Source: Pseudomonas sp. N040
Lineage (GTDB): Bacteria > Pseudomonadota > Gammaproteobacteria > Pseudomonadales > Pseudomonadaceae
NCBI RefSeq assembly: GCF_015637705.1
Contig: NZ_JADOBE010000006.1
Coordinates: 140,420 to 204,419 of the forward strand
Reading direction: 5' to 3'
DNA length: 64,000 nt
In this document: piece after piece, positions 3,458 through 37,564 of the stretch
How positions within the stretch are numbered: position 1 is the stretch's first letter
Layout: each line of letters opens with the position of its first letter
The notes under the pieces: generated by a model
Database searches by the model: none
What the model saw: the letters and a program-made list of their open reading frames with translations, nothing else
What the model was told of the DNA's origin: nothing
Translations under genes and position numbers: made by a program

Positions 3458-3512
3458 AGCTGTCTCCCCGTGCCGTTGGCAAAATTGCTCTGTCAGTGAA
3501 CGCGGGGTCGAA

Positions 3513-3576
3513 CTGAATCGCCCCTGATTTCGCAGACACACAATGACCGCTTCTGGTCGATTCTGTTGAAAAAGTC
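3513..3576. repeat. Direct repeat copy 2: IS3-family end plus TTCTGTTGAAAAAGT tail
   Basis: Begins CTGAATCGCCCC, followed by a GCAGACAC block. The reverse complement of the transposase-linked end at 36100-36124 begins CTGAATCGCCCC and then has TAGACAC in the same place. This suggests a solo terminus left by an IS3-family element. It is the better preserved of the two adjacent copies. Confidence 0.6.
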
Positions 3577-4736: not shown

Positions 4737-5065
4737 GCGAGTCTCCAGGGTTGGGCTGAACTATTGATTCGGCTCTTGATTTGCAAGCGCGGCGCCCGCG
4801 CCGCGACGGGGCGGCAAACGCACACGCCGGCATTACGCCAAACCGGTTGGGCAATCCGGCGGGAAGCAGTCGCCAGCCTGTACGGCCCAGCACCCAAGGG
4901 CAAGGGCATTTCCAGATGTCGGCCACAGGCACGACCATAAATGTCGCATCAGCCCAAGAGTGCTGCGCCCGCCCGTAATTCGCTGGCAGCAATGGCTTTC
5001 CAAACGGTTACAATCAAGCCTGCTGGCCATCCAGCGTGTGCCCGAATGCCCATGGAGATTCCCCC
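4737..5065. other. Divergent intergenic region with no supported gene
   Basis: Separates the minus-strand EamA transporter from nhaA. Open frames here on both strands are short and lack motifs. The region should hold the two divergent promoters, but I see no convincing -35/-10 pair or operator. Confidence 0.5.
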
Positions 5066-6241
5066 TTGCCCCTGAAGCACGCCCTGTCCCGTTTTCTGCA
5101 ACTGGAGTCTGCCAGCGGGCTGCTGCTGATTGCAGCCGCCGCCCTTGCCCTGGTGATCAACAATTCACCGTTGGACTTTCTCTACAACGGCCTGCTGGAT
5201 ACCCGGGTTGCCGTGCAGATCGGCGCACTGGCCATTCAAAAGCCCCTGCTGCTGTGGATCAACGATGGACTGATGGCGCTGTTTTTCCTCACCGTCGGAC
5301 TGGAGCTCAAGCGCGAGATCCTTGAAGGCCAGCTGGCCAGACCGGCGCAGATCATCCTCCCGGGGGCGGCGGCCATCGGCGGCATGCTGGTACCGGCGCT
5401 GATCTACTGGTTCATCAACCGCGACGACCCGGCCGCCATCAGCGGCTGGGCCATTCCGATGGCCACCGACATTGCCTTTGCCCTCGGCGTGCTCGGCCTG
5501 CTGGGCAGCCGGGTACCGGCCTCGCTGAAACTGTTCCTGATGACCCTGGCGATCATCGACGATCTCGGCGCCATCATCGTCATCGCGATTTTCTACTCGA
5601 CCGACCTGTCGCAACTGTCGCTGATCCTGGCCAGCATTTTCCTGATTACGCTGATCGTGATGAACCGCCTGGGCGTGAGCAAACTCTCGCCGTACATGGT
5701 GATCGGTACCTGCCTGTGGATCTGCGTACTGAAAAGTGGTGTCCATGCGACCCTGGCCGGCGTGGTGCTGGCGTTCACCATCCCACTGCGCCCGACCAAT
5801 GGCGAGTCCTCACCCGCGCACGCGCTGGAACAGGGCCTGCATCCGTGGGTAGCCTTCTTCATCCTGCCGCTGTTTGCCTTCGCCAACGCCGGTGTGCCGT
5901 TCAGCGGCATGAGCCTTGCCAGCTTTGTCGATCCGGTGCCGCTGGGAATTGCCGCCGGCCTGCTGCTGGGCAAGACCCTTGGCGTGTTTGGCCTGACCTG
6001 GCTGGCGGTGAGCTTGCGCATTGCGCGACTGCCACTCGGCGCGAACTGGACGCAAGTGCTGGGGGTCTCCGTGGTCTGCGGTATCGGCTTCACCATGAGC
6101 CTGTTTGTCGGCTCGCTGGCCTTTACCCCGGACAGTCCGTACTTCGGCCTGGATCGCGTCGGCATTCTCAGCGGCTCGCTGCTCGCCGCCGTCATTGGCT
6201 ATTCGATTCTCGCGCTGGCCGGCAAAAAAACCGTGCGCTGA
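5066..6241 (+). CDS. nhaA: Na+/H+ antiporter NhaA
   Basis: Start taken as TTG at 5066: TGGAGA at 5053-5058 precedes it by seven bases, and the resulting N-terminus ([17 protein letters not shown]) matches the family. A GTG at 5036 would add ten untypical residues. The 391-residue protein has 11-12 helices. ATDIAFALG (Asp135) and IIDDLGAI (Asp165-Asp166) correspond to the ion-binding aspartates of E. coli NhaA (Asp133, Asp163, Asp164). It exchanges two protons for one sodium at the inner membrane, supporting sodium and alkaline pH tolerance. A bidirectional terminator lies downstream. Confidence 0.93.
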
Positions 6242-6258
6242 AGCATCCTTGCAGGCAT

Positions 6259-6289
6259 AAAAAAACCCGCTGAAGTCAGCGGGTTTTTT
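6259..6289. terminator. Bidirectional Rho-independent terminator
   Basis: A stem of AAAACCCGCTGA pairing with TCAGCGGGTTTT around a short loop, flanked by A-run and T-run, lies between the convergent nhaA and slyB-like genes and can stop transcription from both. Confidence 0.9.
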
Positions 6290-6302
6290 ACGGCTTGCGA
6301 GG

Positions 6303-6767
6303 TCAGGGTGCTACGCGGCTGGTGCCGTTGACCGTCATGATGCGCACACGTTGGCCGACCTTGAAGATCTGGTTGGGCTCTACTTCCTGGACATAGGCGC
6401 GCAGGCTTCCGTCGTCTTCACGCACGGTGATTTCGACACCCTGGGTGCGCGTAAAACCTTCTTCGGCAGCGGCACCGAGCAGGCCACCGGCTACCGCACC
6501 GATGACCGCCATGACATAACTGCCCTTGCCGCCACCGACCGCGCTGCCACCAATACCGCCCACCGCGGCGCCGGCACCGGCACCGATTGGCGTCTTGGTG
6601 CCTTCGATCTGCACCGGGCGCAGGTACTCAATGGTCCCCAAGCGCACGTTCTGCACACTGCGCGCTTCATCGCGGGAATAACTGTCACCGGTCAGATTGG
6701 AAGCACAACCGCCGATCATCAGGGACATGGCCGCGATACTGGCCACCAGCAAAACAGGCTTACGCAT
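6303..6767 (-). CDS. slyB: SlyB-like glycine-zipper outer-membrane lipoprotein
   Basis: Start at 6767, with GGAGAG on the minus strand just upstream. The 154-residue protein has a lipoprotein signal peptide with lipobox MIGGC, so Cys about 20 is lipidated. A glycine-zipper segment (GAGAGAAVGGIGGSAVGGG...GGLLGAAAEE) covers about residues 60-105, and the C-terminal region is a small beta domain ending VNGTSRVAP. SlyB/PcpY-type lipoproteins sit in the outer membrane and belong to the envelope stress response in enterics; in Pseudomonas the role is structural. It is convergent with nhaA and divergent from the small gene at 6886. In P. aeruginosa, from memory, slyB is also close to pdxH. Confidence 0.85.
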   Translation of the reverse strand: MRKPVLLVASIAAMSLMIGGCASNLTGDSYSRDEARSVQNVRLGTIEYLRPVQIEGTKTPIGAGAGAAVGGIGGSAVGGGKGSYVMAVIGAVAGGLLGAAAEEGFTRTQGVEITVREDDGSLRAYVQEVEPNQIFKVGQRVRIMTVNGTSRVAP

Positions 6768-34339: not shown

Positions 34340-35440
34340 ATGGGATTCAACTGCGGCATCGTCGGCCTGCCCAACGTCGGCAAGTCCACCCTGTTCAACG
34401 CCTTGACCAAGTCCGGGATCGCTGCCGAGAACTTTCCGTTCTGCACCATCGAACCCAACACCGGCATCGTGCCGATGCCCGACGCGCGCCTCGCGGCCCT
34501 GGCGGAGATCGTCAAGCCCGAGCGCGTCCTGCCGACCACCATGGAGTTCGTCGACATTGCCGGACTGGTCGCCGGTGCCTCCAAGGGCGAAGGCCTGGGT
34601 AACAAGTTCCTCGCCAACATCCGCGAGACCGATGCGATCGCCCACGTGGTGCGCTGCTTCGAGGACGACAACGTGATTCACGTGTCCAACAGCGTTGACC
34701 CCAAGCGCGACATCGAGATAATTGATCTCGAACTGATCTTCGCCGACCTCGACAGCTGCGAAAAGCAGCTGCAGAAAGTCACCCGCAACGCCAAGGGCGG
34801 CGACAAGGAAGCCGTGGCGCAAAAGGCCCTGCTGGAGCGACTGATCGCCCACTTCACCGAGGCCAAGCCGGCCCGCACCCTGCTGAAAACCATGGGCGAC
34901 GACGAGAAGCAACTGGTGCGCGGTTTCCACCTGCTGACCAGCAAGCCGGTGATGTACATCGCCAACGTCGCCGAGGACGGCTTCGACAACAACCCGCTGC
35001 TCGACATCGTCAACCAGATCGCCGCGGCCGAAGGCGCCCCCGTGGTTCCGGTGTGCAACAAGATCGAGGCGGAAATCGCCGAACTCGACGACGGCGAAGA
35101 GAAGGACATGTTCCTCGAAGCGCTCGGCCTCGAAGAGCCTGGCCTGAACCGCGTGATCCGCGCCGGTTACCAGTTGCTCAACCTGCAGACCTACTTTACC
35201 GCCGGGGTCAAGGAAGTCCGCGCCTGGACCGTCCGCGTCGGCGCCACCGCGCCGCAGGCCGCCGCTGTGATCCACACCGACTTCGAGAAAGGCTTCATCC
35301 GCGCCGAAGTCATCGCCTATGACGACTTCATCCAGTACAAGGGCGAAGCCGGGGCCAAGGAAGCCGGCAAGTGGCGCCTGGAAGGCAAGGACTACATCGT
35401 CAAGGATGGCGACGTGATGCACTTCCGCTTCAACGTCTAA
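34340..35440 (+). CDS. ychF: Redox-regulated ATPase YchF (OLA1-type)
   Basis: ATG at 34340 follows GAGGGAC; 366 residues. The Walker A motif is [14 protein letters not shown], with [16 protein letters not shown] switch II and the C-terminal TGS-like domain with [17 protein letters not shown]. An Obg-family ATPase that binds ribosomes and modulates translation and oxidative stress. A terminator follows directly, then the mobile-element scar begins. Confidence 0.96.
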
Positions 35441-35476
35441 ACAGGACATCGGATTTCGGCGTATTTTACCGGACAC

Positions 35477-35512
35477 AAAACCCCGCATTGTCTTGTACTT
35501 GCGGGGTTTTTT
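35477..35512 (+). terminator. Rho-independent terminator after ychF
   Basis: AAAACCCCGCA pairs with TGCGGGGTTTT around a 13-base loop and is followed by a T-run. It marks the boundary between core genes and the mobile-element scar. Confidence 0.92.
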
Positions 35513-35545
35513 GTTCCTCCTATATCCATCTCCGTCCATTGCCAG

Positions 35546-35608
35546 CCGGGTACTTACCGGGCACGGTACAGGGTATGAAGCCAAAGCCGGGTATCAAAAA
35601 ACCGGGTA
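35546..35608. repeat. CCGGGTA direct repeats upstream of the integrase remnant
   Basis: CCGGGTA occurs at 35546-35552, 35587-35593 and 35602-35608, with a related GGGTATG in between at 35571-35577, all in the same orientation and just before the integrase start. This spacing is like the arm-type sites of a tyrosine integrase, but no core site is seen. Confidence 0.4.
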
Positions 35609-35632
35609 TGTTTCGAATCAGGAGAACAGGCC

Positions 35633-35818
35633 ATGCTGACCGATACCCAATGCCGTACCGCCAAGCCAAAGGATAAGCCCTACAAGCTCACAGACGGCAA
35701 AGGGCTGTATTTGGAGATCAAGCCAAACGGGGTGAAGGCCTGGCGCTACCGCTTCGAGTTGCGTCAAGGCGATGCCGCCAAGGAGAGCACCTTTGAGTTA
35801 GGCGACTACGCAATTGCC
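35633..35818 (+). pseudogene. N-terminal fragment of a P4-type tyrosine integrase
   Basis: ATG at 35633 follows AGGAGAAC and reads about 62 residues of the DUF4102 arm-binding domain (LTDTQCRTAKPKDKPYKLTD then GVKAWRYRFELR and GDYAIAP). The frame then runs into the IS3 remnant near 35818 and stops. The catalytic domain with its Arg-His-Arg-Tyr residues is missing, so it cannot integrate. It is the edge of a lost island inserted after ychF. Confidence 0.88.
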
Positions 35819-36124
35819 CCAAGCGGAGCGGCGACTGGCAGAGCTTCCTGAAAGCCAACAACCTGCTTGGCAGCATGAGTCGGCGTGGTAATTGCCACGA
35901 CAATGCAGTGGCAGAGAGCTTCTTTCAGCTGCTCAAGCGCGAGAGAATCAAGCGAAAGACCTACAGCACACGACAGGACGCTCGGGCGGATGCTTTCGAT
36001 TACATCGAGATGTTCTACAACCCGAAACGACGGCATGGTTTCAATAACCAGCTGTCACCGGTAGAGTTTGAGAAGCGACATTTACTGAGTTTGGAAAGTG
36101 TCTAGGGAATACGGGGCGATTCAG
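35819..36124 (+). mobile_element. Remnant of an IS3-family insertion sequence (right end only)
   Basis: Contains the last part of the transposase gene and the right terminal repeat at about 36096-36124, which ends GGGGCGATTCAG. The left end and orfA are absent; the integrase N-terminus is joined to it. The terminus matches the solo ends at 3392-3576. Confidence 0.8.
35822..36105 (+). pseudogene. C-terminal fragment of an IS3-family transposase (OrfB)
   Basis: In frame from about SGDWQSFLKANN, the peptide continues MSRRGNCHDNAVAESFFQLLKRE, RKTYSTRQDARADAF, and FYNPKRRHGFNNQLSPVEFE, which is the typical end of the rve integrase-core domain of OrfB. The terminal Glu of the DDE triad is probably the AESFFQ glutamate; the first two Asp are missing. 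It has no start of its own. Confidence 0.9.
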
Positions 36125-36246
36125 AGAATCTCTGCTTGCAACCGGGCCTCGAATCCCGGGGATTTCCATATCTATTGAATAGCGCTACTGGTACCGTTAT
36201 GCAGCTTGCAAGATCAATCGGGCGTTCGGTAAGAAGGAGTCTTCAA

Positions 36247-36666
36247 GTGAATAGACACTCCATCACTTTCTTAGGTTTTACAGCTGCGTTGATTTTTGCC
36301 TCTTCCGCAGCGCTAGCTCAAACCACCTGTTCAGCAGACAGTTTCGGCAACACGACTTGCCGGGACAGTAGCGGCAACACAACGCGTGGCAGTACCGACT
36401 CGTTTGGCAACACAACCTGGCGAGATAGTAGCGGTAATACAACTCGGCAAAGTACCGATTCGTTCGGGAACACCACGTTGCGTGACAGCAATGGAAATAC
36501 CACTCGCGGCAATACCGATTCTTTCGGCAACACAACTTGGCGTGATAGCAACGGTAACACCACTCGGCAGAGCACCGACTCGTTCGGAAATACCACCTTG
36601 CGCGATAGCAACGGCAATACCACTCGGTGCAGTGCCGATGCGTTTGGAAACACTACGTGTCGTTAG
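36247..36666 (+). CDS. Secreted protein made of 20-residue DSFGNTT repeats
   Basis: GTG at 36247, with AAGGAG at 36234-36239, gives a 139-residue protein. Signal peptide residues 1-24 end SAALA, with mature start QTTC. Thereafter the chain has a strict period of 20: D-S/A-F-G-N-T-T at residues 31, 51, 71, 91, 111 and 131, each followed about nine residues later by a shorter GNTT. Interior units alternate between a Trp and a Leu after the GNTT. Cysteine pairs (28 and 38; 128 and 138) cap the first and last units. Adjacent repeats differ at many silent sites, so the pattern is maintained by selection. I recognise similar Ser/Thr/Gly/Asn-rich repeat proteins only as hypothetical proteins; a beta-solenoid-like surface protein is inference. 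It sits within the mobile-element scar. Confidence 0.8.
   Translation: MNRHSITFLGFTAALIFASSAALAQTTCSADSFGNTTCRDSSGNTTRGSTDSFGNTTWRDSSGNTTRQSTDSFGNTTLRDSNGNTTRGNTDSFGNTTWRDSNGNTTRQSTDSFGNTTLRDSNGNTTRCSADAFGNTTCR
36328..36663 (+). repeat. 60-bp in-frame tandem repeat (about five and a half units)
   Basis: Each unit encodes the 20-residue DSFGNTT..RDS.GNTTR.. block; every second unit is more alike, giving a 120-bp super-period. There are no conserved spacers, so it is not a CRISPR array. Confidence 0.85.
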
Positions 36667-36882: not shown

Positions 36883-37042
36883 GTGGATTACGATCCAAGC
36901 TACACAGAAGATGAGCTCATCCGGTTTGTCCTAGAAAATGACATGAACATCTCGCTCTTGGCGCCAGGGCAAATCTCACGCGCTGTGGCCATAGCAGCCA
37001 TCATTAGAAATCCAGACTCCATCAAATGGATTCCAAACAATT
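36883..37042 (+). pseudogene. 5' part of an unknown acidic protein, cut at a recombination junction
   Basis: GTG at 36883, with GCGGAG upstream, opens a frame reading DYDPSYTEDELIRFVLENDM and ending in IKWIPNN just before about 37042. From that point the DNA is high-G+C and belongs, on the other strand, to a helicase fragment. The original protein is unknown; only its first 53 or so residues remain. Confidence 0.5.
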
Positions 37043-37174
37043 GCCGCTGCCGGTGGCCGCCGACAAGGCGATGACTTTCTGGTTATCCGGCGATACGCTC
37101 TTACGGGCACTCACCAGGGCATCGCGTAGTTTGGCCAACGCGTCTTTCTGAAAATCAAACAGCGTGACCTTTAT
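37043..37174 (-). pseudogene. N-terminal fragment of a DEAD-like helicase/restriction R subunit
   Basis: Minus-strand frame reading KVTLFDFQKDALAKLRDAL and ending in VIALSAATGSG at the junction. The Q-motif-like start and the Walker A (ATGSGKT) are recognisable, but the sequence stops exactly at the Lys. The first codon is ATA where the family usually has ATG before KVTLF, so it is also start-mutated. It could come from a type III restriction or a DISARM/defence helicase; the remaining stretch is too short to decide. Confidence 0.6.
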
Positions 37175-37310
37175 GCCCGCGCTCCCTGTGTGCCAGCCTG
37201 ACCGGCAGCGCGGTCCTGGTTCTTGTTGATCATGAAATTGAGCAGGTAGTCGCGGCAAAGCTGCATCACCTGCAAGCCAGGGTTAACCGCCCAAGAGAGC
37301 CCTTACGCAG
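37171..37310 (-). pseudogene. C-terminal fragment of the gene that preceded the helicase
   Basis: Minus-strand frame reading WAVNPGLQVMQLCRDYLL, then FMINKNQDRAAGQ and ending at a TAA that overlaps the ATA codon of the helicase fragment by three bases. In the original operon this would be an ATGA overlap. The family is not recognised; no start remains. Confidence 0.35.
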
Positions 37311-37321
37311 GCAGTGAGCTA

Positions 37322-37540
37322 CCTCTGGCATCCAGCACGGCGCAGGCGCTCGACATCGTCAGTGGTTATCCTGGCATCCAGCTCCACCAGCAGCTCACCG
37401 GCCCTGACCTGCTGGCCGTCCTGCACGTGGATAGTCTTGGCCACCGCCACTTCGCTGGGCTGGGCTGGATGACCTTGCTCTTGCAGCTGGGGACAATCTT
37501 GCCGCTGGATGAGGCGCGGTGCCGGATGCACCGGCTGCTC
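37322..37540 (-). pseudogene. Frameshifted fragment of an HlyD-type secretion adaptor
   Basis: One frame reads GKIVPSCKSKVIQP, and the next frame continues EVAVAKTIHVQDGQQVRAGE then LLVELDA. Together these are the lipoyl-like hinge of type I secretion membrane-fusion proteins. A frameshift lies near 37440 and both ends are missing. It abuts the end of azoR. Confidence 0.7.
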
Positions 37541-37564
37541 CTGCAGCGCCAAGGCCTGCCCCGC

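Follow-up and report, generated by a model that had tools for sequence, protein, structure and literature searches.

What does a short, intact gene of strict repeats do among truncated genes, and what shape does its product take? We asked this of a gene in a 64,000-nucleotide stretch of Pseudomonas sp. N040 DNA, the whole of which is called the window here. A preliminary description, made from the sequence alone, had read the gene product as a secreted solenoid with cysteine-capped ends, left standing within the scar of a mobile element.

The gene at 36247–36666 and its surroundings

The gene (36247..36666, + strand) encodes a putatively exported six-unit repeat protein of 139 amino acids, with a GTG start and an AAGGAG ribosome-binding-like site 7 bases 5' of it (36234..36239, +). 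Residues 1–24 (36247..36318, +) resemble a signal peptide in a hydrophobicity scan, with a cleavage site placed by inspection after ALA and before Q, and this start would direct the protein to export, in support of the secretion first proposed. The units, of the form D-[SA]-F-G-N-T-T (36337..36663, +; unit reading and Tandem Repeats Finder), start at residues 31, 51, 71, 91, 111 and 131. Every interval is 20, exactly the periodicity described at the outset, and Tandem Repeats Finder places an array at 36343–36653 with periods of 60 (score 279) and 120 (score 361). The protein has four cysteines only, and these are confined to the first and the last unit, as had been noticed. Specifically, Cys28 and Cys38 stand around Phe33 of DSFGN in the first hairpin (36328..36360, +), and Cys128 and Cys138 stand around Phe133 of DAFGN in the last (36628..36660, +); each pair would form a disulfide.

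A Trp/Leu alternation giving a 40-residue super-period had also been claimed. The alternation, which extends to Gly/Gln, can be made out by eye, yet a comparison of whole units gives no preference for a super-period in this protein (identity 0.86 at even and 0.84 at odd lag, exact p 0.4). Across the family, nine of 37 proteins, chiefly of the plasmid and phage types and without the window protein, reach the best attainable p (0.1) for a two-unit super-period, and in 20 of the 37 even-lag identity is not higher. The super-period is weak and is not a rule of the family.

The gene has a G+C content of 52% against 63% for the window, in which promoter and terminator scans gave counts about equal to those of shuffled sequence. 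Its flanks match the mobile-element scar with truncated genes that had been described. On the 5' side, ychF (34340..35440, +; named by reading) is followed by a 72-residue N-terminal integrase fragment (35633..35851, +; Arm-DNA-bind_3, E 3.6e-14) and a 76-residue C-terminal transposase fragment with an integrase core domain (35875..36105, +; rve_2, E 2.1e-13), which is IS3-type by reading. On the 3' side lies a 77-residue fragment (37322..37552, −) with a sub-threshold biotin-lipoyl match (22.4 bits against a cut-off of 29.8). In a relative (G009; L055, L084), an intact 414-residue integrase gene lies 3' of ychF, and its DNA matches the window stretch 35440–35850 through 35761, that is, into the 72-residue fragment. 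Because an intact integrase occupies the same place there, we interpret the 3' side of ychF as a site of integration, and the repeat-protein gene as cargo that probably survived the decay of an integrative element there.

Two other assignments were tried and dropped. A fragment at 37025–37258 (−), whose start looks helicase-like by eye, is unsupported as a restriction helicase remnant, with no match in PADLOC, Pfam or a plasmid tblastn search. The window copy is not an integron cassette by the attC scan, which, over 24 loci, was positive only for the Frateuria copy (L032) and found no attC within 1.5 kb in the window and 22 others. That copy belongs to an integron as a cassette, with an attC site (3506–3565) after its stop, within an array of such repeats.

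A repeat family on several kinds of element

No Pfam entry exceeded its cut-off in the window protein and ten other members, and the best NCBIfam score of the window protein was 13.5 bits against a cut-off of 32. With 14 members at E 0.01, Pfam models of RHS families and of choline- or cell-wall-binding repeats gave no match. DUF4222 stayed below its cut-off of 27 (20.3 bits in L032, 17.7 in the Alcaligenaceae copy L031), as did DUF6287 in L033 (16.5 against 26.3 bits). Three PHROGs without assigned function, 16871, 16283 and 14658, match 3, 1 and 1 of 14 members weakly (best 5.1e-6); PHROG 16283 is 69 positions long and its match covers 20 residues, and P0003 also matches PHROG 13997 and 23521 weakly. 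Literature searches on the heptads DSFGNTT, DSFGTTR, DSFGNTR, DSLGNTY and TDSFGN, and on integron cassettes with repeats, found no paper. By these sequence libraries the family is unnamed, without a Pfam entry above cut-off and, for the window protein, without an NCBIfam entry.

Relatives nevertheless extend far beyond close strains, mostly as open frames, in answer to the homologue search that the preliminary description had called for. They comprise seven plasmid records, two further Aeromonas records and a short third one (one Aeromonas "plasmid" record measures 4.9 Mb and may be a chromosome), and six phage records, two of which are the same phage; Dickeya phage JA29 matches more weakly. 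IMG/VR viral contigs hold relatives as well, and the queries P0001, the L032 protein and P0008 returned none there. GTDB genomes contributed 21 loci, among them Alcaligenaceae, Frateuria, Xanthomonas, Pectobacterium, Marinobacterium and Pusillimonas; other loci come from metagenome-assembled genomes of a Burkholderiales, an alphaproteobacterial and a Nitrospirae member, and of Bacteroidota, Victivallaceae, Fusobacteriaceae and others, whose contigs may be misassigned. Non-intact homologues are exceptions, namely the stopped Xanthomonas copies and the short Aeromonas copy beside an IS.

The surroundings of these copies differ in kind. Between the Pantoea phage LIET2 and the Enterobacter phage phiT5282EW, the repeat protein (83% identity) is the sole common one of 12 and 16 nearby proteins; phiT5282EW and the Yersinia phage fHe-Yen8-01 have eleven proteins in common, including the repeat protein at 42%. 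Several neighbours in fHe-Yen8-01 are annotated as particle-associated, and the repeat-protein gene is not. Together with the plasmids, the integron and the islands of anti-phage genes, these sequences show that the family has been spread by several kinds of element.

Separately, 12–15 kb cryptic plasmids of E. coli, Enterobacter, Serratia, Yersinia and Klebsiella (L016, L079, L015) encode an identical protein, the 100% identity of the Klebsiella copy covering 91% of its length. Between L016 and L079 the upstream recombinase is identical too, and three other neighbours are 83–86% identical. A viral contig (L024, 775–5165) carries a member within a row of small genes with, for the most part, signal-peptide-like starts.

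The family is very sporadic. Within the genus sample it occurs in 2 of 298 genomes, including the source genome, the second being of a sister type; within the class sample in 1 of 369 and within the phylum sample in 2 of 398, both again counting the source genome; and the plasmid type occurs in 1 of 5426 E. coli genomes. In its own genome (3.67 Mb, 33 contigs), the window protein matches only itself at E <= 10. Such scarcity, and the stops in both Xanthomonas copies, would suit a selfish or neutral passenger that brings its host no benefit and is kept by the spread of elements alone. The codons speak against it. Among ten pairs of full units in the window gene, 8–12 of 20 codons differ silently and 1–4 by replacement, as the preliminary reading of many silent differences had it, whereas only 23% of all single changes that the repeat part could undergo without gaining a stop would be silent, a count of possible changes without a mutation model. 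Silent differences exceed replacements in the heptads of all 15 genes compared. At one extreme, the enterobacterial plasmid copy L016 has six DSLGNTY units without a single replacement and with 66% of codon comparisons silently different; at the other, the heptads of L036 show 33% silent and 23% replacement differences. Additionally, the betaproteobacterial Alcaligenaceae copy (L031) and the gammaproteobacterial Frateuria copy (L032) differ by a dN of 0.079 at a dS of 2.5, a saturated value; over nine gene pairs dN is 0.08–0.33, and dS, computable in four, is 1.3–2.9. L016 and L079, one silent base apart, were left out of this evidence, since their recombinase, encoded two genes upstream, shows 100% identity as well. 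Silent divergence of the unit codons, with low dN at high dS, argues that selection maintains the protein pattern and that recent slippage did not produce the repeats. Judged from these sequences, the amino-acid pattern is under purifying selection, and a mere passenger is very improbable.

Unit number, cysteine pairs and predicted fold

Counted over 39 proteins, the units number six in 34, five in three, four in L039 and three in L030, and no protein has more; six is thus not obligatory. The turn patterns for this count were hand-picked for each protein after that protein had been read. The count excludes duplicates (L022 and L027, which are LIET2, as is L018; L025, the protein of L026; L029, equal to L023), near-duplicates (L048 and L050, like L046; L079, like L016; L081, equal to L028), L082 and L083 from the genome of L035, the incomplete L015, L045 and L080, and matches inside open frames of 2249–4886 amino acids (L004, L005, L007–L013); Nafs113 and the plasmid matches H4–H6 stand outside it or were not counted apart. 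Later finds were read by eye: L071, L074, L086 and L088 have six units and L072 five, L087 and L089 show six with the reading running to the contig end, and L075 was taken together with L074. Spacing among the six-unit proteins ranges from 15 to 25, with 15–19 in P0009, 16 in the phage type, an alternating 20/16 in the plasmid type, and 20, up to 23–25, in the others. Units are mostly alike within a protein and different between proteins, with NTT, NTR, TTR, ITR or NTY endings.

Two tandem copies stand at 5041–6369 of the Xanthomonas sp. NCPPB 1128 locus (L037), and each has an in-frame stop at the same place, past six units and ahead of more repeat sequence. A human-gut phage scaffold (L021, 854–1327) encodes a cysteine-free version with six KDIFGN units. 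A sister type with NxYGG-like turns (L053, L067–L075, L086–L089), found in some genomes of the genus and in viral contigs, has six units in most cases and one N-terminal cysteine pair; its copy L086 lies among phage tail genes by reading. The Pseudomonas SNxYGGQDTR repeat proteins (alignment A3), encoded by 6 of the 148 other genomes sampled from the genus, resemble the window protein in a signal-like start, six 20-residue units in most and a first-unit cysteine pair at ±5; they differ in their NxYGG turn and in having no C-terminal cysteine pair.

The cysteines follow a narrow rule. At least one pair is present in 27 of 33 proteins, and the six without a pair are of the Bacteroidota and Victivallaceae types. 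All 49 pairs (47 spaced 10 and two spaced 14) centre on the residue preceding the turn glycine, which is F in 39, L in 6, Y in 3 and E in 1. Because the spacing shifts symmetrically about the turn, the rule fits what a cross-strand disulfide of a hairpin would need. The 33-protein count leaves out P0008, L077, P0009, L021, L051 and the first L037 copy; of these, P0008 fits at ±7 and L077 at ±5, and the Dickeya phage protein P0009, whose paired cysteines stand 9 apart at a shorter turn, HVGN, departs slightly from the ±5 rule. Lone cysteines occur in L046 and in L041, the latter apparently within the signal peptide. In alignment A2, four cysteines are invariant in 14 of 14 rows, of which L023, L024, L028 and L039 start a few residues off a start codon. 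A hydrophobic N-terminal stretch was found by a simple scan in 31 of 33 proteins, and lies further in for L026 and L041.

The structure prediction proposed with the preliminary description yielded strands aligned with the repeats rather than disorder. AlphaFold on the 14 rows of A2 predicts twelve strands, two per unit, with a mean pLDDT of 81, a pLDDT of 82–88 from residue 31 and a pTM of 0.59; a second model, from six phage-type sequences, has twelve shorter strands, a pLDDT of 75–85 from residue 31 and again a pTM of 0.59. An exported protein folded into hairpins is, on this footing, probable.

How the hairpins are arranged is a further matter. RHS repeats are strand-turn-strand units of about 20 residues with DxxG turns, and RHS proteins form a large hollow shell that encloses a toxin. 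The solenoid first envisaged would correspond to an open-ended ribbon of hairpins, a miniature sheet of the RHS/YD-repeat kind known from T6SS Rhs cores, Tc toxin BC and teneurins. It shares the unit length and strand-turn-strand layout, a weak sequence match to RhsP (phmmer E 0.0012; profile E 0.028), and the first Foldseek place of the RhsA structure 7q97 (E 2.6e-3) in a PDB search in which nothing reached E 0.001; the three- and four-unit members L030 and L039 would suit it as well. The window protein differs in its 139 residues against about 1000 or more, its own signal peptide, six units and terminal cysteine pairs. Its frame is complete, without a further domain, so that no toxin-enclosing shell is found, and the RHS Pfam model PF03527 scores 9 bits against a cut-off of 27.9. 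An open ribbon would also leave the six units of 34 of 39 proteins unaccounted for, and in VIA-align the window model superposes on Rhs, Tc and teneurin chains at Z 5.3–7.3 with an rmsd of 4.2–10.6 Å, against 3.3–3.7 Å for the three leading matches. These are 1zxu (Z 9.8, 3.3 Å, 112 residues), TULP1 (Z 9.2, 3.7 Å, 121 residues) and OEP21 (Z 9.1, 3.3 Å, 110 residues), all of which we take to be closed 12-stranded barrels. For the phage-type model, 1zxu, a designed protein and tubby domains lead at Z 6.0–7.4, within the tool's unspecific range. The near-constant six units and the leading barrel matches of both models point to a closed six-hairpin ring as likelier than an open solenoid, on predicted structures; we regard the open ribbon as unlikely, if not negligibly so. 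The folded repeats of the first reading are thus retained, and its solenoid is revised to a probable closed ring.

The tubby/LURP-one fold is a closed 12-stranded barrel around a helix, and 1zxu and TULP1 lead with Z 9.8 and 9.2 for the window model and 7.4 and 6.4 for the phage-type model; the identity is 4–8%, and the present family is made of repeats. The tubby-like and LURP-one proteins known to us are eukaryotic and not exported. The beta-trefoil, six hairpins in a threefold repeat of about 40 residues, is possible as well, with a weak Foldseek match to the designed trefoil 3p6j (E 0.15) and a two-unit period that is weak in the window protein. Among predicted viral proteins in BFVD, three matches of the window model reach E 0.001, the first of them the Podoviridae protein A0A8S5LE51 (E 4.6e-7, TM 0.73, 20% identity), whose YfaZ label is an annotation and whose likeness is known from a predicted structure; the phage-type model has none at E 0.001. 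The predicted strands, at 3–6 residues, are very short for a barrel, and because of this length a membrane barrel appears unlikely.

Proposed function at the cell envelope

We propose that the protein would be exported by the Sec route and that its mature chain would fold into six consecutive beta-hairpins of twelve short strands, most likely closed as a short barrel. Disulfides would staple the first and last hairpins and keep the ends from fraying in the oxidising envelope, and the six near-identical hairpins would present a repeated polar and aromatic surface, multivalent for an envelope component such as a glycan or a receptor. Mobile elements would carry the gene because it shields their host from rival phages or plasmids, in the manner of superinfection-exclusion proteins. 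To this proposal as a whole, from decayed-element cargo through stapled ring and envelope binding to exclusion, we give a probability of roughly 40%. Its last step, an envelope-acting accessory factor by which mobile elements would hinder phage or plasmid entry, is tentative and, taken by itself, more doubtful.

Cor and Llp are proteins of the superinfection-exclusion or lysogenic-conversion type. The present family is like them and SieA in being small, envelope-directed (by the N-terminal hydrophobic stretch, a sequence criterion) and borne on phages or plasmids, with a repressor region in L035 and L031. We know of no such protein that is built of repeats of this kind. The accessible part of a review of superinfection exclusion (PMC11436027) describes no repeat protein. 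From its description in the accessible part of PMC4267844, Bd0108 of Bdellovibrio is a disordered periplasmic protein that regulates pili; that description gives no link to the family.

The neighbourhoods of several copies are in line with exclusion. In L039 the gene has type III methylase and restriction enzyme genes on one side and the Druantia III genes DruH3/DruE3 on the other; in Aeromonas caviae (L077) it lies 186 bases before brxA, which is followed by brxB and brxC by reading; L034 has HsdM, HsdR and a WYL regulator nearby; and the Aeromonas plasmid copy L076 has a WYL protein, an Orf5/HEC-06 profile match and a SNF2 helicase. In L035, a prophage by reading with RecT nearby, the order is Rap1a-like exported protein, small gene, S24/HTH repressor, and this CI-type repressor stands two genes from the repeat-protein gene; promoter-like sites in this stretch number 5 against 2.5, and terminator-like sites 4 against 1.0, in shuffled sequence. 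In L031, an S24/HTH repressor about 4.2 kb upstream and in the same direction is followed by an HSDR_N protein, an LprI-like exported protein and then the repeat-protein gene. Among 11 main-type loci looked at on chromosomes or large plasmids, five (L033, L036, L037, L038 and the window) showed neither an anti-phage system nor a repressor; their neighbours were scanned in part, those of L038 not at all. The defence neighbourhood is an association and not a statistic, and cargo genes gather in islands anyway. Also counting against exclusion, some of the phage copies belong to phages taken as lytic, in which it would be less obviously useful. The spread over elements and these surroundings suggest a possible role in guarding the cell surface.

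The same surface could serve other ends. Mobile elements could instead carry a general fitness gene whose exported product, either adhesive or a lectin-like protein that binds glycans multivalently, is active in sticking, aggregation or biofilm and is no excluder. The six near-identical polar and aromatic units would suit this reading, as would the versions without cysteine pairs in the Bacteroidota-type loci L040, L043, L044, L046 and L049; however, Pfam scans of family members and an NCBIfam scan of the window protein gave no match to a lectin family, and it leaves the siting near repressors, restriction, BREX and Druantia genes unexplained. We consider it the main functional rival to exclusion, and itself unlikely. 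A structural protector of the envelope against stress, desiccation or ice, whose regular threonine strands would act on water or membrane, is improbable. Across the 15 genes compared, most units do have threonine at heptad position 6, and threonine strands with disulfides resemble insect antifreeze proteins, but position 7 varies between T, R and Y from lineage to lineage, some units of L033, L035 and L036 carry E, K, R or S at position 6, and several GTDB sources of the family are gut or rumen samples.

Among these readings we retain exclusion by a stapled ring as the preferred one. In action the family is at best akin to a superinfection-exclusion protein, and in shape at best to an RHS sheet in miniature or a barrel of the tubby type; it is a tested member of none, and a near-fixed unit number and cysteine-paired ends set it apart from the known systems. 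In a still bolder and quite doubtful extension, the disulfide-stapled six-hairpin ring would be an entry-blocking class common to different phyla and elements, used by phages, plasmids, integrons and defence islands of chromosomes alike, which coats or plugs an envelope receptor against competitors and whose unit sequence is re-tuned near-uniformly over the six hairpins in each lineage.

Tandem-repeat proteins usually vary their repeat number freely, whereas here the number is mostly six while unit length and sequence vary. Units that stay near alike within a protein despite diverged codons, combined with a near-fixed number, would be a sign, open to testing, that the repeat fold is closed. 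If the link to defence and repressor genes is functional, BREX, Druantia and restriction islands, whose own action is intracellular, would gain from the family an exported layer at the level of the envelope.
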